40,138 bases of DNA, from positions 1 to 40,138 of the IMG/VR virus record IMGVR_UViG_3300042323_000856; one strand, given 5' to 3'. A program made the position numbers and the translations under genes. Below are positions 807 through 32,405 of this stretch, piece by piece; the stretch's first letter is position 1, and each line of letters opens with the position of its first letter. The DNA comes from a virus. A model generated the notes under the pieces. That model saw only the letters and a list, made by a program, of their open reading frames with translations. It made no database searches and was not told the DNA's origin.

Positions 807-1422
807 TAAAGAACAAAAATACATTTGCTTTGATTTTGAGACCTGCCATCTCAATCTTTTAGACAACAGCAATAAACCTTGGCAACTAAGCTATTTAATA
901 GCTAAAGGTAGCAACATAATTAAAGAAGTAGATAATCATATCTATTGGCCTGATTTAAAGCTTTCTGAAGGAGCCAAACTCGTCACTCATTTTGATGAGC
1001 GCAAATATCGTTCACTAGCAGTTGATCCAAAAGAAGTGTTGGCTGCGTTTGAGGAGATCATTTATGATGATCAATACTTAATTATAGGACAAAACCTTCT
1101 TGGTTTTGACGTTTATATCCACAACACATACAGAAGACTTCTCGGTTATAAAAGCGACTTCTCTTACGTTAAGAGGATTATTGATACCAACTGTATCGCC
1201 AAAGCAATTAAAAAGAATCTAAAACCCCAAAGAGATTCTGATTTTACTTTCTGGCAGTATAGATTAAATGATTTTCGAGAAAAAGGCTTGAAGACCAGTA
1301 TTAAAACTCAATTGAAAGAATATAAGATTGACTTTGACGAGAACATGCTACATAATTCTATGTACGACGTTCAGATGAATTTTAAGATTTTTCAGAAGCA
1401 GCTTTGGCAAATTGAAATATGA
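793..1422 (+). CDS. DnaQ-like 3'-5' proofreading exonuclease (DEDDh)
   Basis: This 209-residue protein has the DEDD exonuclease signature: motif I FDFETC near residue 14, motif II in GQNLLGFDVY, and motif III HNSMYD near residue 187, where the His five residues before the Asp marks the DEDDh (DnaQ/epsilon) subtype. It would remove mispaired 3' ends made by the polymerase encoded next. It lies exactly between the PHP gene and the polymerase gene, overlapping the first by 14 nt and the second by 4 nt (ATGA). In PolC enzymes the exonuclease is inserted in the PHP domain, so this order resembles a PolC-like layout broken into three proteins. Family assignment is firm; partnership with the polymerase is inferred from position. 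Confidence 0.85.
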   Translation: MLRFNKEQKYICFDFETCHLNLLDNSNKPWQLSYLIAKGSNIIKEVDNHIYWPDLKLSEGAKLVTHFDERKYRSLAVDPKEVLAAFEEIIYDDQYLIIGQNLLGFDVYIHNTYRRLLGYKSDFSYVKRIIDTNCIAKAIKKNLKPQRDSDFTFWQYRLNDFREKGLKTSIKTQLKEYKIDFDENMLHNSMYDVQMNFKIFQKQLWQIEI

Positions 1423-3971
1423 ATTTTTTACAAGACATAAAGCCTTATGATAACGCCATGCTTCCCGGCGTTCGATTGCCACAGATCTCTATCGAAAGTA
1501 AATATTACGACTTGTTGAGCATACCCACTTCTTCAGATAATTTTACATTTCTGAAGACTTTGTGTTACAAGAGTTTAAATAACTTAGGATTAAATAATAA
1601 TCAATATGTTGAGCGAATGGAGATGGAGTTAGAAATCTTCAAAGAGCTTGACTTCGTTGACTATGTACTTCTCAACTGGGATATTCTTAATTTCTGCCAT
1701 GAAAATAATATTCCAACTGGTGCTGGCCGTGGTAGTGCTGCGGGTTCTTTGGTTTTGTTTATCGTGGGTGTTACGAAAGTCGATCCAATAAGATACGAGT
1801 TGTTCTTTGAGCGTTTCGTTAGTCGCTCTCGCGCAAAGAAGATTATTAAAGATGACATAACTTATCTTGACGGTTCTTTGCTTCCTGATGTTGATAATGA
1901 CATTAGCTATGATCGACGCATTGAAGTAATTAAATATATTGAGCAAAAGCATTTAGGTAAAACATCAAAGATATTAACTCTTAATACTTTATCTAGTAAA
2001 CTTTGCATCAAAGAATGTGGAAAAATTGTCGGCGGTCTTTCCGAGACAGAGGTAAACGAAGTCAGCGATAATATTCCAAAACTATTTGGTCGAGTTTTTG
2101 AATTAGAAGAGGCTTATAAAGCTAACGATAAATTCAAAGCTTGGGTGGATCAGAATAAATTCGTTTTCGAAATAGGAAAGAAGATTGAAGGCTTGAACAA
2201 GAATACTGGCGTTCATCCTTCCGGTATCGCTATTTCTTATTACAAGATTGAAGAAGTCTGCCCAGTACAAAAGACTTCGGATGGCGATTTAGTTAGCGGC
2301 TACGATATGAATTATGTAGCTGAGTTGATGGTGAAGTTTGACGTTCTTGGGTTGAGGACTTTAACTGTGGTTAGTGAGGTTTGCAAGAGGTTAAATATAC
2401 AAATGGCTTCTATTGATCCAGAAGATCCTTTTATTTATGAAAACTTGCAGGGTCTTAGAACTCCACAAGGATTATTTCAAATTGAAGCTGAAACTAATTT
2501 TAAAGTATGTCGTAAAGTTCAACCCAAGTCGCTAGAACAACTTAGTGCAGTGGTGGCTATTGCTCGCCCCGGTGCTTTGGACTTCGCTGATCAGTACGCT
2601 ACATATTCTGCATCAGGAGTATTCCAATTAGTGCATGACTTCTTTAAAGATGAGCTTTCATACACTGGAGGTATTCCTCTCTATCAGGAGCAATTAATGA
2701 AGATGGCCGTGCGTCTTGGATTTACTCTTGATGAGTCTGAACAGTTGCGTCGAATTGTCGGTAAAAAGAAAGTGGATCAAATGCCAGCTTGGCAAGGCAA
2801 GATCCGTCAAAAAGTTACAGAGCAGAATTTAGACCCAGCAATTGGAGATGTGTTATGGAAGGTGGCTGAAGACTCAGCAAATTATTCGTTTAATAAATCG
2901 CACTCGATTTCATACGCTATTTTAGCTGCATGGACGATTTATCTTAAATTCAAATATCCACATGAATTTTTCTTAGCTCTTCTTCGATTGTCTAAATTTG
3001 AACCTGATTCACATCAAGAAATTAACAAAATATCTAAAGAGTTAGTATTCTTTGACATTAAGCTTTTGCCTCCTGATCTAGCCAAGTCATCTCTTGATTT
3101 CAAGATTGAAGATGGAAATATTAGATTTGGTTTGAATTCTATCAAAGGCGTTTCAGAAAAGACTCTTCAATCTCTTCAGAATTTTCGCGAAACAACTACT
3201 CCCACAAAATTCGATATCTTTATTTCTGCAAAACAAGCAGGAATTAATATAGGCGTGCTTTCATCTTTGATTCAAGCAGGAACTCTTGGCTCATACACTC
3301 ATCGACGATCACGCTTGGTCCTTGAAGCTCAAGCTTTTAATGTCTTAACAGACAAAGAAAAGAAGTTCGCTTGTAGTGTCGGCCCAAAATACGATTATGA
3401 TATCTTAAATATTATTAGTGAATGCGCGTTCAAAGCTCAATCTCTTAATGAAAGCGGAAAACCATTCATGAATGAAAAGCGTAAGGTCACATTCAAGAAA
3501 AAGTATGATGAGTATAAGAAAATCTACGAGCAAAACAAGAATTATGAAAAATTTGCAAACTGGGTCTTTGAAAACAGGTTGTTAGGATACACTCCAACAA
3601 TTAGACTAAAGACAATTTTCCAACAATCTGAATGCACTTTCACAGATACGTTAGAGTTTCATTCTGCTTTTAAAGAAGACAGAATTAAAATGATTGGTGT
3701 AATAGATGACGTATATAAAGGAAAGACTAAAAAATCTAACTCTACGTTTTATCGTTTTCAATTAAAAGATGAAGTGGGCAGCATAAGTGCTATGTTTTTA
3801 GATGGTGGAAAACATCAGAGATTAACAGAATATCTTGAAGACGGTCTAAAGATACCAGAGAAAGAAAGTATTGTAGTTTTCACTGGCAGAAAAGGAGATG
3901 ATGTGTTATGGATAGAGAACATAGGAATCTTAGACGAAAAGATCTACATGAAATTATCTGATATAGAATGA
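1419..3971 (+). CDS. dnaE (core): DNA polymerase III alpha subunit, polymerase core without PHP domain
   Basis: This is a C-family replicative polymerase of 850 residues. The nucleotide-binding motif GAGRGSAAGS is at 101-110. The catalytic aspartates are D157 and D159 in PDVDND and D308 in VKFDVLGLRTLT, matching D401, D403 and D555 of E. coli DnaE. Further DnaE blocks are GVHPSGIAIS, RPGALDFAD, LYQEQLMKMA, LRRIVGKKK and YSFNKSHSISYA. The C-terminus (about 755-840) looks like the OB-fold of DnaE. Relative to E. coli there is an insertion of about 15 residues just before the first catalytic Asp. It lacks the PHP domain, which is encoded separately at 48-806. It starts by ATGA overlap with the exonuclease gene and ends by ATGA overlap with the Clp gene, so the four genes form one operon. 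Confidence 0.92.
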   Translation: MNFLQDIKPYDNAMLPGVRLPQISIESKYYDLLSIPTSSDNFTFLKTLCYKSLNNLGLNNNQYVERMEMELEIFKELDFVDYVLLNWDILNFCHENNIPTGAGRGSAAGSLVLFIVGVTKVDPIRYELFFERFVSRSRAKKIIKDDITYLDGSLLPDVDNDISYDRRIEVIKYIEQKHLGKTSKILTLNTLSSKLCIKECGKIVGGLSETEVNEVSDNIPKLFGRVFELEEAYKANDKFKAWVDQNKFVFEIGKKIEGLNKNTGVHPSGIAISYYKIEEVCPVQKTSDGDLVSGYDMNYVAELMVKFDVLGLRTLTVVSEVCKRLNIQMASIDPEDPFIYENLQGLRTPQGLFQIEAETNFKVCRKVQPKSLEQLSAVVAIARPGALDFADQYATYSASGVFQLVHDFFKDELSYTGGIPLYQEQLMKMAVRLGFTLDESEQLRRIVGKKKVDQMPAWQGKIRQKVTEQNLDPAIGDVLWKVAEDSANYSFNKSHSISYAILAAWTIYLKFKYPHEFFLALLRLSKFEPDSHQEINKISKELVFFDIKLLPPDLAKSSLDFKIEDGNIRFGLNSIKGVSEKTLQSLQNFRETTTPTKFDIFISAKQAGINIGVLSSLIQAGTLGSYTHRRSRLVLEAQAFNVLTDKEKKFACSVGPKYDYDILNIISECAFKAQSLNESGKPFMNEKRKVTFKKKYDEYKKIYEQNKNYEKFANWVFENRLLGYTPTIRLKTIFQQSECTFTDTLEFHSAFKEDRIKMIGVIDDVYKGKTKKSNSTFYRFQLKDEVGSISAMFLDGGKHQRLTEYLEDGLKIPEKESIVVFTGRKGDDVLWIENIGILDEKIYMKLSDIE

Positions 3972-6376
3972 AAAATTTAAATCTTACTCCTAGAGCGCAA
4001 AAACTAATCAAAGAAGCTTATAAAATAGCTGTAGATTTCAAACACACAGAGATCACGCATCTTCATTTGTTTATAAGTTTTCTTAATCTTAGTCAAAGCC
4101 AAATAGAAGAAGCGTTTGGTAATTTTGGAATAGATTCTTTAAAAATAAAAAACAGTGCTATAAAATTTTTAAAAATCAACACTACAGCGCAAAAGAAAGC
4201 AGTAACTAGACCTTTATTATCTGAAGGCATAAAGACCATTTTTAAATGCGCCAAGAGTATATCTTCTAAATTTGATCATAAGTATATTGGTTTAGAACAT
4301 GTATTTATAAGTTTATTTGAAGTGCCTGATCAAAAGTTTGAACTATACTTAATAGATTATAATTATGACTTTGTTAAAATAGTAGATTACGTTGAACAAA
4401 AGCTAGAAAACGACGACATGCTTCCAAGTGTTGAAGAAGAAGAAATAAATGTTCCTAATAAAGCGAAGCAAACCTTTGATATTAAGAAGTATAAAATCTT
4501 AAACACTTATGCTAACAATTTAAATACACAAGTAGTTAATGGAAAAATTAATAACTTACATTTAAATAAAGAACTAATACAAAAAATTTCAGAAGTCCTT
4601 TGCCGCAAAAATAAGAACAATCCTTTAATTGTTGGCGAAGCCGGTGTGGGTAAAACCGCACTTGTTGAATCTTTGGCTCAAGCAATAGTAAAAGGAGAAG
4701 CTTCGGATTTGCTTAGTCTTAAACAAATTTATAGCCTAGACATACCCATGATGATTGCTGGTTGTAAATTTCGCGGCGAATTTGAAGAAAAGATCAAGAA
4801 CCTATTAAAAGAAATAACTGATGATCCATACATTATTCTTTTTATAGATGAAATTCATACTATTATTGGTGCTGGTAATCCAGAGAATGGAAACGACATG
4901 GCTAATATTTTAAAACCATATTTAGCTAGAGGAGAGATTAGCTGTATTGGAGCAACAACATTCGATGAATACAAGAAAACTATTTCAGACGATCCGGCAT
5001 TATCTAGGCGTTTTCAAATTATCAAAATTGAAGAGCCGACAAAAGAACAAACTTTTAATTTAATTAAAAATATTAAAGGCGGATACGAGAGTTTTCATAT
5101 TATTGATTTTACTGACGAAGTTTTACGCTTTACTATTAACAGTGCTGAGAAATATATTGAAGGAAGATTCCCTGATAAAGCTTTAGATATTATTGATCAA
5201 GTTGGAGCGAAAGTTAAATTGAAAAATTTTGTAAAATCCGCCGAGATGATCAAGATAGAAAAAAAACTCAGCAAATTTGTCGGCTCAAACGAACGAGTTA
5301 GCGAAAACAAAAAAATAGCTTCTTTAGAAACTCTTTTAGTTGAATATGAAGAATCAACAAAAAAGATGATAAACAATTGGCGAAATAATAAATATCAAAT
5401 AACAAACTCTGATATTTTAGAAGTTATATCTGATAAAACAAATATTCCAATTGATGATTTAAAATTACAAGACTTTGAAAAAGTTAAATCTCTCAAGATT
5501 AAACTAAAAGAACAAGTCTTCGGTCAAGAATCTCAAATAGAACATATTTATAAATCTTTAATTAGGGTCAAGGCTGGCTTTCGCAACCCTAGCAAACCGA
5601 TATGTTCTATGCTTTATGCAGGTCCAACAGGTGTTGGAAAAACCATGACTGCAAAAATTATAGCTGAATCTTTATTCATTAATAAAAATAATTTTATAAC
5701 AATCGATATGTCTGAATATACAGACAAAGCGGCTGTAAATAAATTAGTTGGTTCTAGCCCCGGTTATATTGGATTTGATAAAGGAGGAGTTCTAACAGAA
5801 AAAGTTAGAAAGAATCCATATTCTTTGATTCTTTTCGATGAAATACAAAAAGCAGATGAAGATGTTTTGTATTGTTTGTTACAAATTTTAGAAGAAGGCA
5901 AGATAACAGACTCTTCAGGAAAAACTGTTGATTTTTCTAATTCCATGATTGTGATGACTACAAATATTGGTGCCGAAAGCATTAATCATTCTGCTATTGG
6001 ATTTGGTAAACAAAAATCCAGTAAATCAGACGTATTATCATCAATTAAGAAACATTTTCCCGCTGATCTACTTAATCGAATCGATGAAATTGTTATTTTT
6101 GACGCTCTTGGTGAAGAAAACATCAAATCAATCATAGAAAAAGAACTTCAACTATTTAAAAACGATCTATCTAATAGAGACGTAACCATTAAATATTCTT
6201 CAGAAGTTACAAACCACATCTTTAGTAAGATTCAATTTAATAATTTTGGCGCAAGACAAGTTATCAAAACCATTCAACGTGAATTGCAAACTCAAGTTGC
6301 AGAAAAAATGCTAGATGCGGACAAGAAATTGAATTTAGAAATTTCTATCAAAGATGGTAATATTTGTGTAATTTAA
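3968..6376 (+). CDS. ClpA/ClpC-type AAA+ unfoldase with ClpP-docking loop
   Basis: This is a two-ring-domain Hsp100 ATPase of 802 residues. It has a Clp N domain (about 1-145), AAA-1 with Walker A GEAGVGKTA (223-231), Walker B ILFIDE (290-295) and arginine finger at R347/R348, a short middle region, and AAA-2 with Walker A GPTGVGKTM (552-560), Walker B LILFDE (620-625), R704 in LLNRID and sensor-2 GAR at 761-763. The tripeptide IGF at 677-679 sits where ClpA and ClpC carry the loop that docks on ClpP, so this enzyme probably feeds proteins to a protease rather than acting only as a ClpB-type disaggregase. No ClpP gene is in the window, so host ClpP or another phage protein would be the partner. 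It is translationally coupled to the polymerase gene. Confidence 0.88.
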   Translation: MKNLNLTPRAQKLIKEAYKIAVDFKHTEITHLHLFISFLNLSQSQIEEAFGNFGIDSLKIKNSAIKFLKINTTAQKKAVTRPLLSEGIKTIFKCAKSISSKFDHKYIGLEHVFISLFEVPDQKFELYLIDYNYDFVKIVDYVEQKLENDDMLPSVEEEEINVPNKAKQTFDIKKYKILNTYANNLNTQVVNGKINNLHLNKELIQKISEVLCRKNKNNPLIVGEAGVGKTALVESLAQAIVKGEASDLLSLKQIYSLDIPMMIAGCKFRGEFEEKIKNLLKEITDDPYIILFIDEIHTIIGAGNPENGNDMANILKPYLARGEISCIGATTFDEYKKTISDDPALSRRFQIIKIEEPTKEQTFNLIKNIKGGYESFHIIDFTDEVLRFTINSAEKYIEGRFPDKALDIIDQVGAKVKLKNFVKSAEMIKIEKKLSKFVGSNERVSENKKIASLETLLVEYEESTKKMINNWRNNKYQITNSDILEVISDKTNIPIDDLKLQDFEKVKSLKIKLKEQVFGQESQIEHIYKSLIRVKAGFRNPSKPICSMLYAGPTGVGKTMTAKIIAESLFINKNNFITIDMSEYTDKAAVNKLVGSSPGYIGFDKGGVLTEKVRKNPYSLILFDEIQKADEDVLYCLLQILEEGKITDSSGKTVDFSNSMIVMTTNIGAESINHSAIGFGKQKSSKSDVLSSIKKHFPADLLNRIDEIVIFDALGEENIKSIIEKELQLFKNDLSNRDVTIKYSSEVTNHIFSKIQFNNFGARQVIKTIQRELQTQVAEKMLDADKKLNLEISIKDGNICVI

Positions 6377-6409: not shown

Positions 6410-7558
6410 ATGAATGAACATAACCCTATTTATGGTATAAATCCAAATCCGCCATCATCTAATGACACATTTGATTTTGTGATGCCAGACATTCCTGAAC
6501 CACCGCAAAATGAAAAGCCAGAGCCTAAAGATAGAGATTCTGTAGGTTTTAAATTTGGCTTTATTGGTGCTGGTCAAGGTGGCGGAAAATTGGCTGAAAC
6601 ATTTTCTCAAATTGGTTATGCTCGCGTTGGTGTTATTAATACTGCCGATCAAGATCTTGCCACCATCAACGTGCCAAATAAAATGAAATTTGGTGAACAG
6701 CAAGGAGCAGGAAAAAACAGAGAATTCGCTAAACAGGCTTTTTTGAATAGTAAAGAAGATGTCGTTGATTTTATTAAGTCTTCTATCGGTACTGATATAG
6801 ATCGTATCTTTGTAACAGTTGGTGCTGGCGGTGGAACTGGTGCTGGTGTTTGTTCTGAGCTTGTTAAAACGGTTAAAGAATATCAGAATACAATTAAAGC
6901 TGGTTCTCCTTATGTTGGTTTGATTCTAGCTCTGCCAAAGCTTTCTGAAGGTAAAAAGGTAAGCCAAAACGCTTATGAAACATTAAAAGAAGCTTGTGAA
7001 CTAGTAGAACAAAAGATTGTTTCTCCTCTTATCATTCTTGATAACGAAAGAATCAATTCTCTTTATCCAAAATTATCTGTAAATAAATTCTGGCAAGTAG
7101 CAAATGCAAATATTTGTTCTTTGTTCCATTTGTTTAACAACATAATTACTAAAAATAGTCAGTATAGCACATTTGACACAAATGATTTCAGAACTGTTCT
7201 CGATTCTGGTATTATGGTTTTTGGTGCAGCTAACATTACTAATGTTAGTAGTGAATCCGAGATCAGCAAAGCAGTACGCGAAAATCTTAAGAGAAATGTT
7301 CTTTGCGGCGAGCTTGATCTTTCTACTGGTAGCACCGCTGCTGCTGTGGCTATTTGCGATGAAAAGACATTAGATAGTATTCCTCAAGAATACTTAGACA
7401 ACGCTTTCAATCAATTGAATAGAACTCTTAAAACCAACAGTACAGTTCATCAAGGCGTTTATAAAGGAGTTAAAGAAGGTCTTTCTATATTTACCGCTAT
7501 CGGAGGCATTGCAACTCCTGTTGATAAACTAGACGCTCTTCTAAAAGCTAGTCAATAA
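6410..7558 (+). CDS. Tubulin/FtsZ-family GTPase
   Basis: This 382-residue protein has the FtsZ/tubulin core. The first glycine-rich loop is FGFIGAGQGGGK near 49-60, the signature GAGGGTGAG is at 138-146, and a T7-loop equivalent runs through D256 and D259 (FDTNDFRTVL), matching the catalytic aspartates of FtsZ NVDFADVRTVM. Polymerisation-coupled GTP hydrolysis is therefore likely. The first 45 residues are proline-rich and disordered-looking, an unusual tail for this family. Large phages use tubulin-like filaments to position replication compartments or virions; that role is inferred here and not shown. The start has no Shine-Dalgarno sequence. A GTGTAA motif lies at 6366-6371 at the end of the Clp gene, 38 nt upstream. 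Confidence 0.85.
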   Translation: MNEHNPIYGINPNPPSSNDTFDFVMPDIPEPPQNEKPEPKDRDSVGFKFGFIGAGQGGGKLAETFSQIGYARVGVINTADQDLATINVPNKMKFGEQQGAGKNREFAKQAFLNSKEDVVDFIKSSIGTDIDRIFVTVGAGGGTGAGVCSELVKTVKEYQNTIKAGSPYVGLILALPKLSEGKKVSQNAYETLKEACELVEQKIVSPLIILDNERINSLYPKLSVNKFWQVANANICSLFHLFNNIITKNSQYSTFDTNDFRTVLDSGIMVFGAANITNVSSESEISKAVRENLKRNVLCGELDLSTGSTAAAVAICDEKTLDSIPQEYLDNAFNQLNRTLKTNSTVHQGVYKGVKEGLSIFTAIGGIATPVDKLDALLKASQ

Positions 7559-14500: not shown

Positions 14501-14520
14501 TATCTGTGTAACAACAGATA
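14501..14520 (+). promoter_or_regulatory. Start-abutting hairpin with GTGTAA-N8-ATG
   Basis: TATCTGT (14501-14507) pairs with ACAGATA (14514-14520), so the hairpin includes the A of the ATG at 14520. GTGTAA (14506-14511) runs into its loop and ends exactly 8 nt before the ATG. This would allow control by either strand opening (promoter) or start-codon hiding (RNA). Confidence 0.55.
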
Positions 14521-15479
14521 TGACTTTCAAGCTACCAATATTTATTATATTGGTTTTTTTATTTACTGGATGTTTTTCTACAATCAAGCCTTCTAAACAA
14601 ATCGATGACAATCAAAAGATTATCGCGAAAGAAGAAAAAAAAGTAGATAACACTTTAGTAGAAATCGAAAAGAACGACAAAGGTAAGAAAATACAAACCT
14701 CTGGGCTTTCAATCGGCATTCAACATTCTTTAAATCAAGTTACTAATGCTCCTGTGCAAGTAGACACGGCATTAAAATTGAACGAAAGAGTTATTTCCAT
14801 TGTCGGTTCGCCTCACATAGACGAAACAAAAAGAATTAAAGCTACAGTAGATCTTTTAAACTCCGCTTTAGTTGAAGAACGTAAAAAAGGCGAAGAGTTA
14901 TTAACTCAAAGAGACGAACTAATAAATAAACTTCAAAAAGAAAAATCAGAATTAAATCAAAAATACGACGATCAACTCTGGCAACTAACCGATAAAGCTA
15001 AAGAAGTAGCCAAAGAAGCTGATCAAAATAAAGCTGTATTAGATTCAATGAGCGGAATGTTTGGTCTTAATGCAGTATTTTGGGGATTAAAGAAATTTAT
15101 TGTTAGCGCGTTAACTGCGATATTAGTATTTGTTGTAGTATTCGTTCTTCTTCGTTTATTGGCTACGGTTCATCCTGCTGCCGCCGCTGCATTCTCAATA
15201 TTTAATATGTTGGGATCTGCAATCATATCTATTCTTAAAGCTCTTACTCCCAAAGCTTTTGAAATGTGTGATTTCGCAACAAAAGATAAGGTTGATGAAT
15301 TTAAATCTCCTCTTGTTAAAATTGTAGATGTTATTCAAGAATTGAAAGTAAAACAGAAAGAATCTCCTGATAGAGTATATCCATTAAATGAATTACTAAA
15401 ACGTTTCGAGAAAGAAATGGATAGCGATGAAAAAGATTTAATAGATAATATATTAAGAGAACAAAAGTGGATCAAATAA
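14520..15479 (+). CDS. Lipoprotein-like membrane protein with coiled coil
   Basis: This 319-residue protein starts with a signal sequence ending in a lipobox-like LFTGC (Cys18; Phe at -3 is not ideal). A charged region follows, then a long coiled coil at about 102-172, hydrophobic helices at about 192-214 and 218-241 separated by an alanine-rich stretch (HPAAAAAFS), and a charged C-terminus. It is probably exported and anchored in the envelope. No family is recognised; spanin, holin-associated or channel-accessory roles are all possible. Its neighbours downstream are the MscS-like protein and the ankyrin-cyclase, with which it may form a membrane signalling unit. The start is marked by the GTGTAA-N8 signal and a hairpin. 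Confidence 0.7.
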   Translation: MTFKLPIFIILVFLFTGCFSTIKPSKQIDDNQKIIAKEEKKVDNTLVEIEKNDKGKKIQTSGLSIGIQHSLNQVTNAPVQVDTALKLNERVISIVGSPHIDETKRIKATVDLLNSALVEERKKGEELLTQRDELINKLQKEKSELNQKYDDQLWQLTDKAKEVAKEADQNKAVLDSMSGMFGLNAVFWGLKKFIVSALTAILVFVVVFVLLRLLATVHPAAAAAFSIFNMLGSAIISILKALTPKAFEMCDFATKDKVDEFKSPLVKIVDVIQELKVKQKESPDRVYPLNELLKRFEKEMDSDEKDLIDNILREQKWIK

Positions 15480-15536: not shown

Positions 15537-15569
15537 GTGTAATCAGTTATGACACAACTGATTATATGA
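15537..15569 (+). promoter_or_regulatory. GTGTAA motif, 11-bp hairpin and 6-codon leader frame before the MscS-like gene
   Basis: GTGTAA (15537-15542) is followed after 6 nt by ATG at 15549, which opens a 6-codon frame (M-T-Q-L-I-I) whose TGA at 15567 overlaps the ATG of the MscS-like gene at 15566. The same bases form an inverted repeat, 15538-15548 with 15556-15566 (11 pairs, one G-T) around a 7-nt loop. This looks like a leader-peptide or hairpin control of the next gene. Confidence 0.5.
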
Positions 15570-15946
15570 ATACAAACGACGTACACGTTATATCACAACA
15601 AGTATTAGAATCAACTGGTCAAGATTTGACCGGCAAATATGTTTGGTTATTTATTATTGGACTTGTAGCATTAATGTTTAAGTCTAGTATCGAAAAACTT
15701 GCCGCAGCTTTATTCATGTTTGTTGGAAATGATTATAAAGAAGATGATGTCGTTTATGTAGATGGTAAACCTGGAAGAATAGTTAGAGTGGGTTTAACAA
15801 AGACCGTATTCTTCATATACGATGTTGTTGACGGAAAGGTTTTGGGCGGCAGCAAACTAGTCGTCCAAAACGAAAGACTAGCATCATTAAATATTGAAAA
15901 GCCTCTTGCTAACTTAGATCTAAGTAGATTTAAAAAACAAGACTAA
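15566..15946 (+). CDS. Minimal MscS-like protein (one membrane helix plus beta domain)
   Basis: This 126-residue protein resembles the pore helix and beta domain of small-conductance mechanosensitive channels. A hydrophobic helix lies at about 25-38, then an Ala-rich segment (IEKLAAALFMFVGND). The MscS beta-domain pattern follows: DYKEDDVVYVDGKPGRIVRV, then LTKTVFFIYD and a NERL turn at 102-105 in place of the PNG motif. The large TM1-TM2 and C-terminal cage of full MscS proteins (about 280 residues) are absent. It may form a small oligomeric pore or sensor. It sits 1 nt before the nucleotide-cyclase gene and is almost certainly co-transcribed, so ligand or signal coupling is plausible but unproven. 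Confidence 0.7.
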   Translation: MNTNDVHVISQQVLESTGQDLTGKYVWLFIIGLVALMFKSSIEKLAAALFMFVGNDYKEDDVVYVDGKPGRIVRVGLTKTVFFIYDVVDGKVLGGSKLVVQNERLASLNIEKPLANLDLSRFKKQD

Positions 15947-15947
15947 A

Positions 15948-17720
15948 ATGGCAATTAATATTTTCACTCATATCCGCCGCAATTTATATGATAATGTCTA
16001 CAATTGCATAGTTAAAGATAAAGTTAATATAAACGAAAGAGATGAGGATACCGGCAACCCTCCTCTTATCGTAGCCGTGTCAGAAAACAATAAAGAAATT
16101 GTTGAATTATTATTGAATCATGGTGCTGATGTTAATTGTAAAGACTGGACAAGTAAAAATACAGCACTTGATATTGCAGAACAAAAAGGGTTTTTATCAA
16201 TTGTTGATACTCTTCAAAAACGTGGCGCAAAATACGGCAGTGGTAGCAGTTTTCATTTAGCCGCTAAAAATGGAGATATAGTCTCTATCGAAGAGATGTT
16301 GAACAAAGGACATACTTTAAATGAAGTTGATGCCGCAAAAGGCTGGACCGCTCTGCATTACGCGGCTCACTACGGACAAAAACATCTTGTAGAATATTTA
16401 TTAATCAAAGGTGCAGATGTTAACGCTAAAGACTTCTTAGGAAAGAATAATCCAATAGACGTATTAGCTTTAGGTAATAGAGGCGAAATAGTAAGAATAT
16501 TAACTAAAGCTGGCGCAAAATCTTCTGGCGGTTCAAGCCTTCATTTTTGTGCTGAAACAGGAGATTTTGAAGGTGTTCAAAAGTATTTTGATGTTGATGG
16601 TCGCATAAACGGTAGGGATGAAAAAAATGGATGGATGCCTATTCATTATGCCGTTAACGCTAACGATATAGAAATGGTCGAGTTTTTGATATGTTTAGGA
16701 GCTAATGTTAATGGAGCGGATTTTAAAGGCGAAATAGCTCCATTAGATTTGGCTTTTAAAACCGGCAATATTAAAATGCAAACACTGCTTCAATTAAAAG
16801 GAGCAGCAAGAAAGAAAAAAATCGACAATGGAGGCAACGGTAAAGACGTTACAATTCACATCAGCGAAGAATTTAAAAAACAAATGCAAGCTTATATTGA
16901 TAAAAGAAATGAAGAAGAAGATAAATTAAAAAAAATACACGAAGAAGAAGTCGCAAAAGATCCAAAGAAAAAAGATAAAAAAACAATCAACTGGAAAGAA
17001 TTTTTAAAAAGCAAAAACAAAGTCGTCGAAGAAAAGAAAATCGAAGAAGTTAAAAAAGTCGAAGCTCCGAAACCACTTAAAAAAATAATAAATCAAGTAG
17101 CAGCTATTGATGCTGAAGTTAAATCTAGTCGTCTTGAATTGGACAAAATACAAGATGGCTATATTTTTTTCATGGACATAGTTGGATATAGTAAAAAAAC
17201 CACTGATGAGCAGAGAAAATGCTTTAAAGATTTGGGCGAAATAGTTAAATCAACTATACAGTTTAAAACCGCAAACGCACTTGAAAAATTAATCGTTCTA
17301 CCGACAGGAGATGGAATGATTCTCGGATTTTTTACTTATCTTGAAGACGCTATCAATTGTGGCATTACCGTAGCAAAAGCTGTAAAAAATAGACCAGATT
17401 TAGAAATGAGAATGGGTATTCATTGTGGCGATGTTTGCCCGCTTGAAGATATCAATGGCAATTTAAACATTAGTGGCGATGGAATTAATTATGCACAAAG
17501 AGTAATGGATTCAGGAGAAACTAATCATTTATTAGTTAGTTCTGATGTTGTAGCTAAATACGATAGGCCAAATTATGTATTAGTCGAAGATCTTGGCGAC
17601 GTTACTGTTAAACATGGAGTTATTATGAGATTATATAGCTTATACGCATCTGACTTTGGAAACAAAGCGTTTCCAACTTCTAGGGTTAAAAAAACAGAAT
17701 CAACACCTAAAACAATATGA
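15948..17720 (+). CDS. Ankyrin-repeat class III nucleotide cyclase
   Basis: This 590-residue protein has ankyrin repeats over about 35-290 (for example GNPPLIVAVSENNKEIVELL, GWTALHYAAHYGQKHLVEYL, GWMPIHYAVNANDIEMVEFL). A Lys/Glu-rich linker follows (about 300-395), and a class III cyclase domain covers about 400-568. The metal-binding aspartates are D410 (FFMDIVGYS) and D455 (LPTGDGMILGF), and the transition-state pair is N514 and R518 (GDGINYAQRVM). The two base-selecting positions, Lys and Asp in adenylate cyclases, are Leu451 and Asn507 here, so the product is not predictable and need not be cAMP. Ankyrin repeats probably bind a protein partner that controls activity. It follows the MscS-like gene by 1 nt and overlaps the next gene by 4 nt. 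Confidence 0.88.
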   Translation: MAINIFTHIRRNLYDNVYNCIVKDKVNINERDEDTGNPPLIVAVSENNKEIVELLLNHGADVNCKDWTSKNTALDIAEQKGFLSIVDTLQKRGAKYGSGSSFHLAAKNGDIVSIEEMLNKGHTLNEVDAAKGWTALHYAAHYGQKHLVEYLLIKGADVNAKDFLGKNNPIDVLALGNRGEIVRILTKAGAKSSGGSSLHFCAETGDFEGVQKYFDVDGRINGRDEKNGWMPIHYAVNANDIEMVEFLICLGANVNGADFKGEIAPLDLAFKTGNIKMQTLLQLKGAARKKKIDNGGNGKDVTIHISEEFKKQMQAYIDKRNEEEDKLKKIHEEEVAKDPKKKDKKTINWKEFLKSKNKVVEEKKIEEVKKVEAPKPLKKIINQVAAIDAEVKSSRLELDKIQDGYIFFMDIVGYSKKTTDEQRKCFKDLGEIVKSTIQFKTANALEKLIVLPTGDGMILGFFTYLEDAINCGITVAKAVKNRPDLEMRMGIHCGDVCPLEDINGNLNISGDGINYAQRVMDSGETNHLLVSSDVVAKYDRPNYVLVEDLGDVTVKHGVIMRLYSLYASDFGNKAFPTSRVKKTESTPKTI

Positions 17721-17929
17721 AAATGGCACCTTTAACAAGACAATACCATCCAAGTATTGTTGATACTAATTTAGATATATATAAAGTAAAAGATAGAGTT
17801 ATGGCCGCTCCAATAAGCCCCACTCCAGACCCTTTTCAAGTGACTGACATACTTGGCTCAAACAGGATCAATGAAACTAAAATTAAAATAGTAGTTTATA
17901 ACTCTAAAGGTCTTTTTTATTTTATATAG
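17717..17929 (+). CDS. Small hypothetical protein after the cyclase
   Basis: This 70-residue protein is coupled to the cyclase by an ATGA overlap. The N-terminal half is proline-rich and extended (APISPTPDPFQVTD); the C-terminus is basic and then hydrophobic (VVYNSKGLFYFI). No domain is recognised. Its position makes it a candidate partner of the cyclase operon. It ends in TAG. Confidence 0.55.
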   Translation: MKMAPLTRQYHPSIVDTNLDIYKVKDRVMAAPISPTPDPFQVTDILGSNRINETKIKIVVYNSKGLFYFI

Positions 17930-18002: not shown

Positions 18003-18224
18003 ATGTCAGACAAGTACGAAAATAATAGTTACGATGCTGTTCTCTCAAGAATGGAACAAAAATTAGATACTATCTCTGACAATATAGACGATATTAAAAA
18101 AAGCCACAAAGACTTAGAAACGCGAGTCGCTGGCCTTGAGTATTTTAAATATTATTTAGCAGGAATAGTTGCGGCGGTTTCAGTTGGGGCTAATTATTTA
18201 ATGAACAAAATAAAAGGCGTTTGA
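18003..18224 (+). CDS. XhlA-like coiled-coil membrane protein
   Basis: The 73-residue protein has a coiled coil (about 12-48: LSRMEQKLDTISDNIDDIKK and on to LETRVAGLE) followed by one C-terminal membrane helix (about 50-66, YLAGIVAAVSVGANYLM) and a basic end. This is the layout of XhlA/hemolysin-type phage proteins that act with holins in lysis. The likeness is one of architecture, not strong sequence identity. No endolysin is seen in this window, so a different membrane role is also possible. Confidence 0.6.
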   Translation: MSDKYENNSYDAVLSRMEQKLDTISDNIDDIKKSHKDLETRVAGLEYFKYYLAGIVAAVSVGANYLMNKIKGV

Positions 18225-18237
18225 CGAAAAAAACTTG

Positions 18238-18273
18238 TTGACTTCTCGCTAAAATGGTGTAAAATCATACACC
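18238..18273 (+). promoter_or_regulatory. Promoter plus start-abutting hairpin of the outer-membrane protein gene
   Basis: TTGACT (18238-18243), a 16-nt spacer and TAAAAT (18260-18265) precede the ATG at 18275 by 9 nt. The hairpin GGTGTA (18256-18261) with TACACC (18268-18273) overlaps the -10 and ends 1 nt before the ATG. An operator palindrome or leaderless start control is likely. Confidence 0.65.
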
Positions 18274-18274
18274 T

Positions 18275-18982
18275 ATGATTAAGTCATTTAAGTTATTCAT
18301 CGTATCGGTTCTAGCCTCAGTCGCAGTTTTTGCTGCGGATGCCGAGGAATCAACAATCAACGCCAGTATTAACGCTGGTTACAACAACCACTACATCGTC
18401 AATGGTCTAGCAAAGACTGGCGGATCAGCATTTGCTGGTTTCGATATTGGAAAGACCTATTTTGGTGTAGATGCTTACGTCGGTGGTGTCGTTCTTCCTA
18501 ATTCTAATAACATCGACGAATCTCATTGGAAGGTGGGTGTTGGCAAGGCTCTAAAGATTACCGAAAAGTTCTCCCTTCGCGGTGATTTGCAAGTTCTTCG
18601 CCATCAAAGCTCAATTCTTGGAGGTCGTAATTCCACTGAAATCGCTCCAAAGATTGCCTTGGTAAATCCATATCTAACTCCTTATATCCGTGGTTCACAT
18701 GACTTTAACCTTGGTCAATCAGGTTATATCGTTGGTGTTGAACGCCCAACCGATGTGTTCGGCTGGTTCACTGTTACTCCTGCTGTCGAGTATGGTAAGT
18801 TTACTGATTATGATGTCGTAGCAGCCAAGATTGGTGTTTCTCGCACTTTCTTTAATCACCTTCAACCTTATGCTGAAGTTGGATATTATGACAATAATTT
18901 TCAGTCTTCCAAGTATAACTTCGCACGCCAAGAGTTCAGCGGTGATGTAGTTGCTATTGCGGGAGTTCGCTGGAACTTCTAA
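18275..18982 (+). CDS. Outer-membrane beta-barrel (porin-like) protein
   Basis: This 235-residue protein has a classical signal peptide (about 1-21, LFIVSVLASVAVFAAD). A run of amphipathic strands typical of a small outer-membrane barrel follows (NAGYNNHYIVNGLAKTGGSA, FAGFDIGKTYFGVDAYVGGV and so on), and the protein ends in VRWNF, whose terminal Phe is the BAM-complex recognition signal. It is a self-contained unit with its own promoter and terminator. Lys is written almost only as AAG, unlike the AAA-rich neighbours, so it is probably strongly expressed or came from elsewhere. Phage-coded barrels can change the host surface, for example to block superinfection; that role is inferred. Confidence 0.75.
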   Translation: MIKSFKLFIVSVLASVAVFAADAEESTINASINAGYNNHYIVNGLAKTGGSAFAGFDIGKTYFGVDAYVGGVVLPNSNNIDESHWKVGVGKALKITEKFSLRGDLQVLRHQSSILGGRNSTEIAPKIALVNPYLTPYIRGSHDFNLGQSGYIVGVERPTDVFGWFTVTPAVEYGKFTDYDVVAAKIGVSRTFFNHLQPYAEVGYYDNNFQSSKYNFARQEFSGDVVAIAGVRWNF

Positions 18983-24762: not shown

Positions 24763-26955
24763 ATGAAACTGAATATTGCTGACAGGATCGTTGCGACTTC
24801 GCACGATTTCCCCACCGTAAACTGTACGATTGATCCAGAAGATATGAGGTACATTTCCTCTCTTCTGCGAAACAATTATTCGAATACAATTTTAGCTACC
24901 ATTCGTGAGCCTTATGCGAATGCAGTTGATGCTAATAAAGAAAATGGATTATCGCCAGAACTTATTGAAGTCAAATCCCCAACCTCTCTTGATCAGACTT
25001 TTTCTGTTCGTGATTTTGGTCCCGGTTTGAGTCGCGATCAAATTTTTAATCTGTATAGTAAGTTTGGTAAGTCTACAAAGCGCGATTCTAATACAAACAT
25101 TGGAGGATTTGGAGTCGGACGCTTCGCGCCTCTTTCTTACAAAGATAGTTTTACTGTTACTTCTTATTATAATGGTATTCAATCTATCTATAGCCTTTAT
25201 ATTTCTGAAGAGAATGACACTAAGATTGATGAAGTATTCTTTGGGCATACTACTGAATGTAATGGTATTTGTATTTCTGTCGGAGTCGCGAATGCTGATA
25301 TAAATAAATTCAACGAAGAGATCGCTTCATTCTTTAGTAATTTTGAGGTTCTTCCTACGTTCCTCAATATTCAAAATCACATTGTCAAGCCTGAGATTGT
25401 CGCTTCTGGTACTGATTGGCAGATTCGTAAATCTGATAACAGTCATAATTATTATTCAGTTGGCGAGCAGGGTGTTGTAATGGGCGGCATTTATTATCCT
25501 ATCAATCCTGAACTGGTTGATTTTAAGAGTGACGATGGTTATGCATGGACTAAGTATCTTAATAAGCTTGTTTTTGTTGCTGATATTGGATCTGTTTCGC
25601 TGCATCACTCACGCGAAACACTTGAGTATAATAAGACTACCAAGACTTATTTGAAGTCTCGTTATCAAGCTTTCTGTAAAGAGTTTACGGATTCGATTAA
25701 GAATAAGATCGCGCAATTTGATTGTTTGCGTGATGCTATGAGTTGTTATTTTGATATTAAACATACTTTTCCTCGAAACGTTTTTGACCAACTTCAAGAT
25801 CAAGATGTTTTTGTATTTAAAGGGTATAAAATTGATACTTATACTTTTAATCGTGGCAGTTACGAAGAAAACGGTAGGGCTACTAGAATTCCTGTTTATA
25901 CTAAAACTTATACTCTATCTGGTGATCGCGTAATTATTAGTAAATGCTATACTGTTCCTAATGATAAAAATTATTATATTGTATTTAATGATTTACCAAA
26001 TAATACTAAAGTTGTTCCTCGCCTTTATGAATTAGCTAAAAAATATAAAACCATAATCGTTATCGCTCACGATGAATCAATCGTTAGTTCCGCTACTATT
26101 AATGGCGTTGATAAGTTCAAAGAAGTTAATCGATTTGATCTTGTTAAGTCTGGTTATTGTAATCTAAGTGAATTGACTGCTGTTAAGCTTCCTTCTAATA
26201 AGAAAGCTTCTACCATTCCATATACGCCTAGTTATTTTTACAAGGTTGATGGCCGCATTCTTCATTCTTCAAATTCTTATTCTCAAGAGATAAACGATAT
26301 CTCTATTGTTAAACTTTATTTTCCTATTTCTAATGGTAAACCTATCAATCAGTATTCGCATTTTTATTATGAAAAGAATAAACTCAATACTCATTTTTTA
26401 AACGATATAACCAAATTGTTTAAGATCAGTGTTTATGGAGTATCAAATAATATAGTCATAACTAGTAAATTTAAAAGCCGCACTGACTTCATTGACTTTA
26501 ATAAGTATATCCAAGATAAATGGGACAATTGTTCTTATGAAGTTAAATCGTTGATTCTTGAATATCTTTCTTGCAAGACTGATGACGCTTATAATATTAT
26601 GACTTTCGTGTCTATGGTTGGAGACGTTGTTACTTATCAGAAATACGATTACAAGGTAAAATTTTGTTCAGAACTTCTTAAGAAAGCGGACGCGCTTATA
26701 TTTGCCGAATTTATTAAAACTTGGCGGCATCCGTTGGAAGCTCTTAAAATTAATATGTCCCACGACAACGAAACTCCAGTTTCTATTTGTGGAAAATATT
26801 TAAAAGAAGCTGCCGAAGAAATTTATAAAAATTATCCAATGCTTAAAATTCATTCCGATCTTTACCATACTGATCGCAATAAAAATGAAGCTGAATTTAA
26901 GGCATACATTTCCTTCATCAACCAGCAGAATTCGGTTGACTTTTCGAAAATTTGA
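24763..26955 (+). CDS. rIIA: RIIA-like GHKL ATPase domain protein
   Basis: This 730-residue protein matches phage T4 RIIA. It has the GHKL N-box ATIREPYANAVDAN (45-58), the G1 box VRDFGPGLS (82-90), then FGKSTKR and the G2 box IGGFGVGRFAPLSYKDSFTV (113-132). VVMGGIYYPI and SLHHSRETLEYN follow, which align with the T4 blocks AIYGGIVYPI and DIAPSREALSL. RII proteins work at the inner membrane and protect infection against exclusion systems such as RexAB in T4; the biochemical role remains open. The rIIB partner follows at once, as in T4. The gene has a strong leaderless promoter. Confidence 0.88.
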   Translation: MKLNIADRIVATSHDFPTVNCTIDPEDMRYISSLLRNNYSNTILATIREPYANAVDANKENGLSPELIEVKSPTSLDQTFSVRDFGPGLSRDQIFNLYSKFGKSTKRDSNTNIGGFGVGRFAPLSYKDSFTVTSYYNGIQSIYSLYISEENDTKIDEVFFGHTTECNGICISVGVANADINKFNEEIASFFSNFEVLPTFLNIQNHIVKPEIVASGTDWQIRKSDNSHNYYSVGEQGVVMGGIYYPINPELVDFKSDDGYAWTKYLNKLVFVADIGSVSLHHSRETLEYNKTTKTYLKSRYQAFCKEFTDSIKNKIAQFDCLRDAMSCYFDIKHTFPRNVFDQLQDQDVFVFKGYKIDTYTFNRGSYEENGRATRIPVYTKTYTLSGDRVIISKCYTVPNDKNYYIVFNDLPNNTKVVPRLYELAKKYKTIIVIAHDESIVSSATINGVDKFKEVNRFDLVKSGYCNLSELTAVKLPSNKKASTIPYTPSYFYKVDGRILHSSNSYSQEINDISIVKLYFPISNGKPINQYSHFYYEKNKLNTHFLNDITKLFKISVYGVSNNIVITSKFKSRTDFIDFNKYIQDKWDNCSYEVKSLILEYLSCKTDDAYNIMTFVSMVGDVVTYQKYDYKVKFCSELLKKADALIFAEFIKTWRHPLEALKINMSHDNETPVSICGKYLKEAAEEIYKNYPMLKIHSDLYHTDRNKNEAEFKAYISFINQQNSVDFSKI

Positions 26956-26984
26956 GTTAGCATAGTTGAACAGTTAAGGTGTAA
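26936..26984 (+). promoter_or_regulatory. rIIB control region: sigma70-like promoter plus GTGTAA
   Basis: TTGACT (26936-26941) with a 16-nt spacer and TAGCAT (26958-26963) overlaps the rIIA end. A second signal, GTGTAA (26979-26984), is exactly 8 nt before the ATG at 26993. Two start points for rIIB, one with a short leader and one leaderless, are possible. Confidence 0.55.
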
Positions 26985-26992
26985 AAAATATT

Positions 26993-28093
26993 ATGAACAA
27001 GCCAGCATACATTGTCACCAGCAACGCAATCACGGTAATTTGGGAAGGTCGCCCGTACATGGTGAATACGGATAATCCCAATTATACTGGATTGAAGAAC
27101 GCTCTGCTTAATGCAGAATACGACAGTATTGGTCGATTTCTTGATATCAAGAAGCAGATCGAAGACTTCTCGCATAACAGCATTAAGATTGTTTCTGAGA
27201 AGGTTTATTACGGCAATTACGAACTGAAGGGTTTTGTAATTGATAAGTTGCTTGAGTTTTTGCGCTCAGGAGCTAAGGACGCTCAACCTATTCTCAATTT
27301 TATTGAGAAGCTTATGTTCAATCCTAGCAAGAACAGTGTCGATCAGTTGTATACTTTTCTTTCTTATAAGACTTTGCCATTGACTGAGACTGGCAATGTT
27401 ATTGGATATAAAGGCGTTGATGCTGATTATTATTCAAAGCATGGTAATACTAATACCATTGTTATCACTGGTACTGTAAATAAGAATGGTTGTATTCTTA
27501 ATAAGGTGGGCGAAACTATTGAAGTCGCTCGCAACAGCGTTGACGACAATAAGGACAATCACTGTTCTCATGGTCTACACGTTGGTAGCTATGATTATGC
27601 AAAGGGTTGGGCTGGTAACGACGGCCATCTAATGATGGTTGAATTTAATCCTTGTGATGCAGTTAGTGTGCCTACTGATTGCAATTTCCAGAAGCTTCGC
27701 GTTTCTAAGTACAAGGTCATTGGTGAAGTTCCTTTCGAGCGTGTTAAGGAAACTGAAGCTCCGCTCAATGAGCCTTATTACAACACTGAAGAAGAAATCA
27801 GCGTTGATGATGACAATAATGATTGCGACGACAATTGTGGTTGTAATATCAGTGAAGGCCACAACTATAGCGATTCTACTTATCTCGCTATCAAGAATTA
27901 CGTTGAGGGTCGTATTGAGGCTGGATTGCCTCCTACTCTCAAATCCATTCAATCCCGTCTAAAGGGTATTTTTATCACTTGTCAAGAAATCAAGGATATT
28001 TGTTTGGACCTAGAATTTACGGTTCAGGAAGATAATCTGACTGCTTTGTCGAACAGTGTTGTAACTATCGGTTCAGAGTCTGATGATCGGTAA
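26993..28093 (+). CDS. rIIB: RIIB-like protein with C-terminal extension
   Basis: The 366-residue protein matches T4 RIIB over about 90-245: LYTFLSYKTLPLTETGNVIG (T4 LFDFLVANDIEITEDGYFYA), then VARNSVDDNKDNHCSHGLHV (T4 MPRTRVNDDDTQTCSRGLHV), and DAVSVPTDCNFQKLRVSKY. Unlike T4, the N-terminus has no clear helix-turn-helix. The protein instead carries an acidic Cys cluster (C278, C282, C284) followed by a helical C-terminal domain (about 295-350) that could be a relocated DNA- or RNA-binding element. It follows rIIA by 37 nt. Out-of-frame readings across its middle are shadows. Confidence 0.85.
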   Translation: MNKPAYIVTSNAITVIWEGRPYMVNTDNPNYTGLKNALLNAEYDSIGRFLDIKKQIEDFSHNSIKIVSEKVYYGNYELKGFVIDKLLEFLRSGAKDAQPILNFIEKLMFNPSKNSVDQLYTFLSYKTLPLTETGNVIGYKGVDADYYSKHGNTNTIVITGTVNKNGCILNKVGETIEVARNSVDDNKDNHCSHGLHVGSYDYAKGWAGNDGHLMMVEFNPCDAVSVPTDCNFQKLRVSKYKVIGEVPFERVKETEAPLNEPYYNTEEEISVDDDNNDCDDNCGCNISEGHNYSDSTYLAIKNYVEGRIEAGLPPTLKSIQSRLKGIFITCQEIKDICLDLEFTVQEDNLTALSNSVVTIGSESDDR

Positions 28094-31273: not shown

Positions 31274-31648
31274 ATGAGTATGAAATTCACTCGTAAGGGA
31301 TTCTTTAAATCTATATTCGGCGGTTTTGTAGCGGCAGCAGCGACTCCATCTCTAGTCAAAGCGGAAGAGAATATTCAACCGTCAAAAGATTTTTCACTTA
31401 ATAATGGCAATCTTGGTATTGGAGGATTAGATAACGTTGGATTAGGAACTAGTATGCCCATTACTAAGCTCCATGTCCACGGTATTATTTTTCATGTTAA
31501 TGATCGAACGCTAGAAATGAGTGGAAATGAAAATGGCGACTTTGAAGTCAAATGGTTAGACGTTAAAGAAAACGAAACTAATACAAGAATCATGATCAGC
31601 AAACCAACGATTCCTTTTAAAACACAATTTAGAAATGACATTCGATAG
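31274..31648 (+). CDS. Exported protein with tail-fibre-like segment
   Basis: The 124-residue protein has an N-terminal signal (FTRKGFFKSIFGGFVAAAAT), Tat-like but with RK in place of RR, with likely cutting near VKA/EE. The middle holds GIGGLDNVGLGTSMPITKLH, the GIGTxxPxxKLHV repeat style found in phage tail fibres and bacterial surface adhesins, then a beta-rich end. It might be a surface-exposed decoy or adhesin fragment. It follows the pseudopilin gene and is overlapped 14 nt by the next gene. Confidence 0.55.
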   Translation: MSMKFTRKGFFKSIFGGFVAAAATPSLVKAEENIQPSKDFSLNNGNLGIGGLDNVGLGTSMPITKLHVHGIIFHVNDRTLEMSGNENGDFEVKWLDVKENETNTRIMISKPTIPFKTQFRNDIR

Positions 31649-32405
31649 TCACAATAAGAAAATAGTATTACTTTCTGATCTTCACAATAATATTGAGAAG
31701 TTCAATAAGATTATTCAGCACGAATCGGCAGACATAAATATTTGTCTTGGCGATTGGTTTGATAGTTTTAATTTGGATGATTCCGATGATTATAAAAAGA
31801 CTGCTGATTATTTGATGCGATATCTATCTGCGCCGAATAATTATACTCTTTTTGGTAATCATGATTTGCATTATTTATTCAATAATCATTATACTATATG
31901 TAGTGGATATGAAGATAGAAAGTATTTTGCTATCGATGAAATACTAGGATCTGAGCGTCAAAATATTACCAATAAATTCAAATGGCGTTTTTGGATTGAT
32001 GACTATCTTTGTACTCATGCTGGACTGTTTTCTGATTACATAGATCCATCTGTTAAAAACAATGATGACTTGAATCTATTTTTTGTGAAAGAAATAGAAC
32101 GCGCAAATATTGCTTTACGGACAGATCAAAATCATTGGTTTTATTATGCTGGCCGAAGTCGAGGTGGTCCTAAGAAAGGTGGAGGAATTGTTTGGCTAGA
32201 TTTTAAACAAGAGTTTCAACCTATTGAAGGATTAAAACAAATCGTTGGACATACTTATCATAAAAATGGTAGAGTTAATCCTCACCATTTGGATGGCAAC
32301 GTGAATCCAGCAGATTGCGACAATCTTTGCATTGACAACGGACTAAATGAGTATATAGTGTTCAGCAACGGTAAGTTAGAAATTAAAAAATTTTCAGATA
32401 TATAA
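31635..32405 (+). CDS. Calcineurin-like metallophosphoesterase
   Basis: The 256-residue protein has the metallophosphatase blocks in order: LLSDLHNN (about 12-19), LGDWFDS, GNHD, then CTHAG and VGHTYH. It binds two metals and cuts phosphoesters; likely substrates are a nucleotide, nucleic acid or phosphoprotein. It overlaps the previous gene by 14 nt. In this phage it is near other nucleotide-processing enzymes. Confidence 0.88.
   Translation: MTFDSHNKKIVLLSDLHNNIEKFNKIIQHESADINICLGDWFDSFNLDDSDDYKKTADYLMRYLSAPNNYTLFGNHDLHYLFNNHYTICSGYEDRKYFAIDEILGSERQNITNKFKWRFWIDDYLCTHAGLFSDYIDPSVKNNDDLNLFFVKEIERANIALRTDQNHWFYYAGRSRGGPKKGGGIVWLDFKQEFQPIEGLKQIVGHTYHKNGRVNPHHLDGNVNPADCDNLCIDNGLNEYIVFSNGKLEIKKFSDI

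Follow-up and report, generated by a model that had tools for sequence, protein, structure and literature searches.

A phage ankyrin-repeat protein carries a class III nucleotidyl cyclase domain related to a bacterial subfamily lacking the Lys/Asp base-selecting pair

Introduction

In phage biology, most known nucleotide signals are alarms raised by the host. Adenylate cyclases encoded by phages themselves have been reported in the curli (T8SS) modules of pelagiphages, where they adjoin CsgG, CsgF and FecR and are proposed to steer the infected cell, so that a phage cyclase is already known as an idea (PMC9599517). Among cellular class III cyclases, two mycobacterial enzymes are instructive for unusual active sites. 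In Rv1900c (LipJ), His replaces the transition-state Asn, and both adenylate and guanylate cyclase activity have been described (PMC4886424). In Ma1120, replacement of the base-selecting Lys and Asp lowers activity without abolishing it and loosens the choice between ATP and GTP, and the mutants still make cAMP and cGMP (PMC4215837). For the PycC cyclases of the Pycsar system, base specificity has been assigned to F100/R142/Q144 in EaPycC, Y50/D94/R97 in BcPycC and F60/K104/F109 in AnPycC (PMC11224242).

Here, we analyse a protein that joins ankyrin repeats to a class III cyclase domain and is encoded in a 40-kb stretch of DNA from a single IMG/VR virus record (IMGVR_UViG_3300042323_000856, 40,138 nucleotides; hereafter, the window). 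A second record, IMGVR_UViG_3300044911_002373, carries a stretch identical to it. The protein resembles the pelagiphage cyclases in being encoded by a phage, whereas CsgG was found in none of 14 of the contigs analysed here, and we therefore rejected an origin in a curli module. Our preferred reading, to which we assign a probability of about 0.55 as a whole, is that of an active, ankyrin-regulated class III cyclase of bacterial origin that probably makes a purine cyclic mononucleotide (cNMP) during infection. In the literature searched, mostly open-access papers, we found neither a phage ankyrin-cyclase nor a phage MscS, and no account of the ankyrin fusion, of this cyclase subfamily, of an activity for any of its members or of the mini-MscS cassette described below.

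Results and Discussion

Architecture and fold of the ankyrin-cyclase

The protein consists of an ankyrin array, a charged linker and a cyclase domain (Table 1). The repeats are recognised by Pfam with an E value of 2.9e-36, and the PADLOC and NCBIfam ankyrin matches are generic repeat matches. The Guanylate_cyc profile (PF00211) scores the cyclase domain at 22.6 bits, just above its curated cut-off of 21.9. The AF2 model of this domain has a pLDDT of 93.5 and a pTM of 0.89, and Foldseek matches it to class III cyclases (best E 1.1e-11), so that profile, model and structure comparison all give a class III catalytic fold. The nearest solved folds are Rv1900c (TM 0.76), other bacterial and eukaryotic cyclases, and Ma1120 (TM about 0.75). 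The best solved matches are all adenylate or guanylate cyclases, that is, purine cyclases.

Table 1. Coordinates of the ankyrin-cyclase, its domains and residues, and the other cassette genes in the window.
Feature	Position	Strand	Details
Putative lipoprotein, 319 aa, lipobox-like ...LFTGC, coiled coil, hydrophobic hairpin	14520..15479	+	sequence
Mini-MscS-like protein, 126 aa, one long predicted TM helix and MscS beta-domain	15566..15946	+	
Ankyrin-repeat / class III nucleotidyl cyclase protein	15948..17720	+	590-aa ORF from ATG
Ankyrin-repeat array, residues ~10-290, about 8 repeats	15975..16817	+	Pfam Ank, Ank_2, Ank_3, Ank_4
Charged, helical-looking linker, residues 291-385, faster evolving	16818..17102	+	composition; dN/dS 0.04-0.31
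Class III cyclase domain, residues ~395-572	17130..17663	+	PF00211, conservation, AF2, Foldseek
Metal Asp D410	17175-17177	+	cyclase domain
Non-canonical base position L451	17298-17300	+	cyclase domain
Metal Asp D455	17310-17312	+	cyclase domain
Non-canonical base position N507	17466-17468	+	cyclase domain
Transition-state N514	17487-17489	+	cyclase domain
Transition-state R518	17499-17501	+	cyclase domain
K555 in VKHG motif	17610-17612	+	cyclase domain
70-aa ORF, conserved cassette member	17717..17929	+	overlaps cyclase stop codon (ATGA)

Six active-site residues (D410, L451, D455, N507, N514 and R518) lie exactly where the original prediction had placed them, and K555 is probably the equivalent of the triphosphate-binding Lys of class III cyclases. 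The two base positions hold neither the Lys and Asp (or Thr/Ser) of canonical adenylate cyclases nor the Glu and Cys/Ser/Gly-type residues of guanylate cyclases. Rv1900c likewise lacks the canonical Lys, having Asn there in the HMMER alignment, although both mycobacterial enzymes share only 20-24% identity with the phage domain and carry other accessory domains.

Conservation and selection in two phage groups

Relatives of the protein are encoded on at least 105 IMG/VR stretches, from which we conclude that the gene is real; successive searches of viral contigs had returned 24 loci in a first scan, 64 by alignment and at least 105 relatives in the broadest search, the best 80 of these being retained. 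Two groups can be distinguished, both with the order of ankyrin array, linker and cyclase. Group 1, to which the window belongs, comprises 63 contigs with a readable cyclase ORF, up to 174 kb in length, and their full-length proteins comprise 25 distinct sequences, which group into 8 clusters at 95% identity; many of the contigs are near-copies and many come from the same lakes, so contig counts do not represent independent events. Across the whole protein, group 2 (loci L225-L242 and L113) shares only about 33% identity with that of the window. In eight large group 1 contigs, a T4-type gp23 capsid gene lies within a few kb of the cassette. A search of 50,697 named phage records found no homologue of the cyclase domain, returning ankyrin-repeat matches only. 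The ankyrin-cyclase has become fixed in a lineage of large, uncultivated phages found in lakes and seas.

Conservation of the catalytic residues goes far beyond chance. The six positions read D, L, D, N, N, R in 63 of 63 readable group 1 contigs, and the metal Asp pair, the transition-state Asn and Arg, and K555 are invariant in the phage groups. When bacterial domains are included, D410 and D455 are kept in 112 of 112 non-identical domains, K555 is invariant in the same set, and N514 and R518 are kept in 111. Pairwise dN/dS in the cyclase domain is 0.015-0.04, calculated only where dS is unsaturated. The ankyrin array gives about 0.02-0.06 where measurable, indicating selection about as strong as on the cyclase, while values for the linker (Table 1) and the tail are higher than for either domain. 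The proposal that the repeats mediate control by a protein partner is therefore plausible, as the array is present in both groups and selected much like the cyclase.

One group 2 gene (L236:5060-6606) is split over two frames, probably through a sequencing error or a frameshift. The phage ankyrin-cyclase gene also occurs in public bacterial MAGs assigned to Verrucomicrobiales, Bacteroidetes and Flavobacteriales (L089, L090 and L113). The first two are short MAG contigs whose genes are 74-80% identical, and the third is a 77-kb contig in a Flavobacteriales MAG; all three are probably misbinned phage.

A bacterial subfamily with the same base positions

Leu451 and Asn507 had been regarded as unusual. 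They are not a phage peculiarity; rather, they define a large bacterial subfamily. A single scan of bacterial genome contigs with the patterns DGM..FF and IN.AQRVM, both of which exclude the two base positions, returned at least 295 bacterial relatives. A set of 77 non-identical bacterial domains has L, I or V at the Lys position in 76 cases and N at the Asp position likewise in 76. Two bacterial-like sequences that served only to steer the search patterns were excluded from counts, tree and fold. The subfamily carries the motifs LPTGDGM ... NxAGxGINxAQRVMD and has members in Acidobacteria and Verrucomicrobia. The phage cyclase shows all of its marks: a hydrophobic residue at the Lys position, Asn at the Asp position, LPTGDGM, GxGINxAQRVMD and VKH. 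At about 38-46% identity, phage and bacterial domains share the catalytic residues, the L/I/V and N pair, and a C-terminal VKHG ... GN. They differ in that the bacterial cyclases are preceded by a Ser/Thr kinase or followed by TPR, and no ankyrin repeats were found in the members examined.

Maximum-likelihood analysis unites the two phage groups in one clade (support 100/99) within the bacterial subfamily, and a long branch divides the subfamily from canonical cyclases; the tree is rooted only at the midpoint. A single phage clade at this position indicates that the cyclase was probably acquired once from bacteria, before the two phage groups diverged. Three plasmid matches that we examined proved to be canonical Lys/Asp cyclases of rhizobial type with about 30% identity, and were used as an outgroup only. 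Seven bacterial genomes with relatives each contain 4-16 matches to cNMP-binding domains, as expected for cNMP signalling, although such domains are common in general. As the active site is the same in at least 295 bacterial relatives, and the seven genomes are also rich in cNMP-binding domains, the substrate of one enzyme would speak for a whole branch of class III cyclases.

These data bear on whether the cyclase domain could be dead, or serve only to sense nucleotides or to dimerise, leaving the ankyrin array as the functional part. Such a role would agree with the missing base-selecting Lys and Asp and with a PF00211 score so close to the cut-off. However, the linker drifts, whereas the metal and transition-state residues and Lys555 never vary, and the bacterial relatives keep the same active site next to a kinase or TPR, a pattern expected if catalysis is the conserved property. 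We consider a dead domain unlikely.

Activity and probable product

In agreement with the original prediction of a probably active enzyme, the catalytic residues are invariant, purifying selection is strong and the fold model is confident. In our judgement, these features make it likely that the domain, presumably as a dimer, is catalytically active. The behaviour of Rv1900c and Ma1120 indicates that loss of Lys and Asp implies neither inactivity nor a pyrimidine product. A purine product seems to us rather probable and a pyrimidine one improbable, again as a matter of judgement. The original prediction fairly refrained from naming a product; the nucleotide and target named here are guesses.

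A link to Pycsar had also been suggested, with the phage protein as a related pyrimidine cyclase serving as decoy or countermeasure. The class III fold is common to both, the base pocket is non-canonical in the phage domain, and a phage encodes it, all of which would suit this idea. Profile, specificity residues and neighbours nevertheless all speak against it. The PADLOC PycC model scores the phage domain at 12.6 bits over 21 residues (E 0.013), whereas a rhizobial cyclase of the ordinary type reaches 23.6 bits. When the residues are positioned by their spacing from the metal Asps, with the metal positions of the two PycCs taken from PMC11224242, the EaPycC specificity set corresponds to F408/L451/T453 and that of AnPycC to F408/T453/I458; the comparison with BcPycC was made by inference. 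F408 is common to all these cyclases, while the informative specificity positions of the solved PycCs differ in the phage domain. PycC was absent from the sequence matches and from the 50 structure matches listed, and PADLOC identified no Pyc effector (PycTIR or PycTM) among six cassette-region proteins. In addition, an alarm molecule made by a phage would be expected to trigger Pycsar rather than block it, unless modified. Accordingly, we rejected membership of Pycsar on the profile scores, the unshared residues and the missing effector neighbour, and regard a Pycsar-related decoy or countermeasure as very improbable.

Another possibility is that the gene is an auxiliary one that makes cAMP and rewires host transcription or surface through CRP-type receptors, independently of its neighbours. 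The nearest structures are purine cyclases, and the pelagiphage curli-module adenylate cyclases have been proposed to act in this way (PMC9599517). In 17 phage contigs, a well-controlled search for the cNMP-binding domain PF00027 revealed none and hence no dedicated phage cNMP receptor, in which case the receptor would be the host's. On the other hand, the lack of CsgG separates these contigs from the curli modules, and the group 1 gene sits in a fixed cassette of membrane proteins. We hold a cassette-independent cAMP gene to be possible but rather doubtful.

A four-gene cassette with a mini-MscS protein

The cassette and its mini-MscS gene, which did not figure in the original prediction, are reported here for the first time. 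Group 1 contigs share the gene order lipoprotein, mini-MscS, ankyrin-cyclase and small ORF. In the window, the 126-aa gene stops one base before the cyclase ATG and, given the ATGA overlap at the other end of the cyclase gene, the mini-MscS, cyclase and 70-aa genes are probably translated together. The mini-MscS gene is present in all 59 group 1 contigs (of 63) with at least 600 bases upstream, directly upstream in 57, while the lipoprotein-like gene occurs in 57 and the 70-aa gene in 53. The cassette genes remain close to one another where flanking genes differ, for example in L028, although the 126-aa gene and the cyclase are 933 bases apart there. The lipoprotein gene was detected in 11 of 17 large contigs and in none of the five from group 2, making it a cassette member in group 1 only. 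In group 2, a mini-MscS relative lies on the same contig as the cyclase in 15 of 19 records, as little as 9 bases (L231) or as much as about 9 kb away, and often on the opposite strand beside a PhoH-like gene.

By profile comparison, the 126-aa family is MscS-like, with the window member alone being a weak match. With the MscS profile PF00924, 13 of the 15 members give matches at E<=1, the best at 6.4e-7, and 3 of 17 contigs exceed its curated cut-off of 20.2 bits; the window member scores 14.6 bits (E 0.036), below the cut-off. A PDB profile search with the family gave MscS 4hw9 as top match (E 0.0076). The AF2 model is of low confidence (pLDDT 63), and its Foldseek matches are weak and include MSL10 and MscS but also ribosomal proteins. 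The protein corresponds roughly to the superfamily core, pore helix and beta-domain, but lacks TM1/TM2 and the C-terminal vestibule domain. The bCNG channels, cited in PMC4560390 as cyclic-nucleotide-gated members of the MscS superfamily, have a C-terminal cNMP-binding domain that the 126-aa protein lacks, and no recognisable ligand-binding domain was found in it.

Mini-MscS relatives number at least 281 in uncultivated marine and freshwater phages (L255-L334 among them), without a match among named phage records, and a PhoH-like gene often adjoins them. The cyclase nearly always occurs with mini-MscS, whereas the converse is false: a reverse scan found the cyclase near only 17 of the best 80 mini-MscS loci, which led us to reject an obligatory pairing. 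It was also absent from 14 further mini-MscS contigs of up to 144 kb, most of which are fragments and for which there was no positive control. Since most mini-MscS loci lack the cyclase, the link may reflect shared genome context, and a functional connection between cyclase and channel-like protein is suggestive only. L232, L234 and L235 each carry two divergent mini-MscS copies on opposite strands.

Proposed role during infection

Preservation of the cyclase over deep divergence, its regulatory domain and its place in a membrane-protein cassette suggest that the phage makes a signal of its own. In the reading that we prefer, the catalytic domain would have been gained once from the bacterial subfamily without the Lys/Asp pair, and the ankyrin domain would sense a protein partner, from host or phage, and set cyclase activity. 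During infection, the enzyme would then increase the amount of a cyclic mononucleotide in the cell, most likely one of the purine kind (cAMP, perhaps with less strict specificity). In phages of the window's lineage, this signal would most likely act on envelope or lysis physiology with the cassette proteins, or on host cNMP receptors. The architecture, the conservation, the selection, the tie to the bacterial subfamily and the cassette are computed results, and we infer catalysis, dimerisation and ankyrin control.

A bolder version is a self-contained phage circuit, in which the ankyrin-cyclase senses an infection event and makes a cNMP selected by its Leu/Asn pocket, without plain cAMP or cGMP selectivity, and this gates mini-MscS to time lysis or exclude superinfection. 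If true, the same signal would also be in use across a large bacterial subfamily that is as yet uncharacterised; we think a circuit of this kind unlikely.

Other genes in the window

The cyclase is surrounded by a cluster of envelope-related genes. Positions 18003-18982 encode an XhlA/hemolysin-like 73-aa protein with a C-terminal TM segment and then a 235-aa signal-peptide protein that resembles an outer-membrane protein. A T4-like lysis-inhibition pair, made up of an rIIA-like (HATPase) gene and rIIB (24763-28093; PHROG lysis inhibitor), lies downstream of the cassette at a distance of about 7 kb. A calcineurin-like phosphoesterase (31635-32405; PF00149) outside the cassette could hydrolyse cyclic nucleotides.

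At one end of the window (48-6376), a PHP-domain protein, a DnaQ-like exonuclease, an 850-aa DNA polymerase III alpha and a ClpA/B-type AAA+ ATPase are encoded one after another: a bacterial-type polymerase distributed among several genes. They are followed at 6410-7558 by a Tubulin/FtsZ-family GTPase (PF00091, E 4.7e-12) with a TubZ-like C-terminal domain; some phages position their DNA by means of a phage tubulin. Finally, the product of 19848-20492 matches PHROG phrog_3704, annotated as ferredoxin (E 2.3e-42), but has no evident ferredoxin features, so the label is probably wrong; in L242, a distant homologue of this protein is encoded directly upstream of the cyclase.
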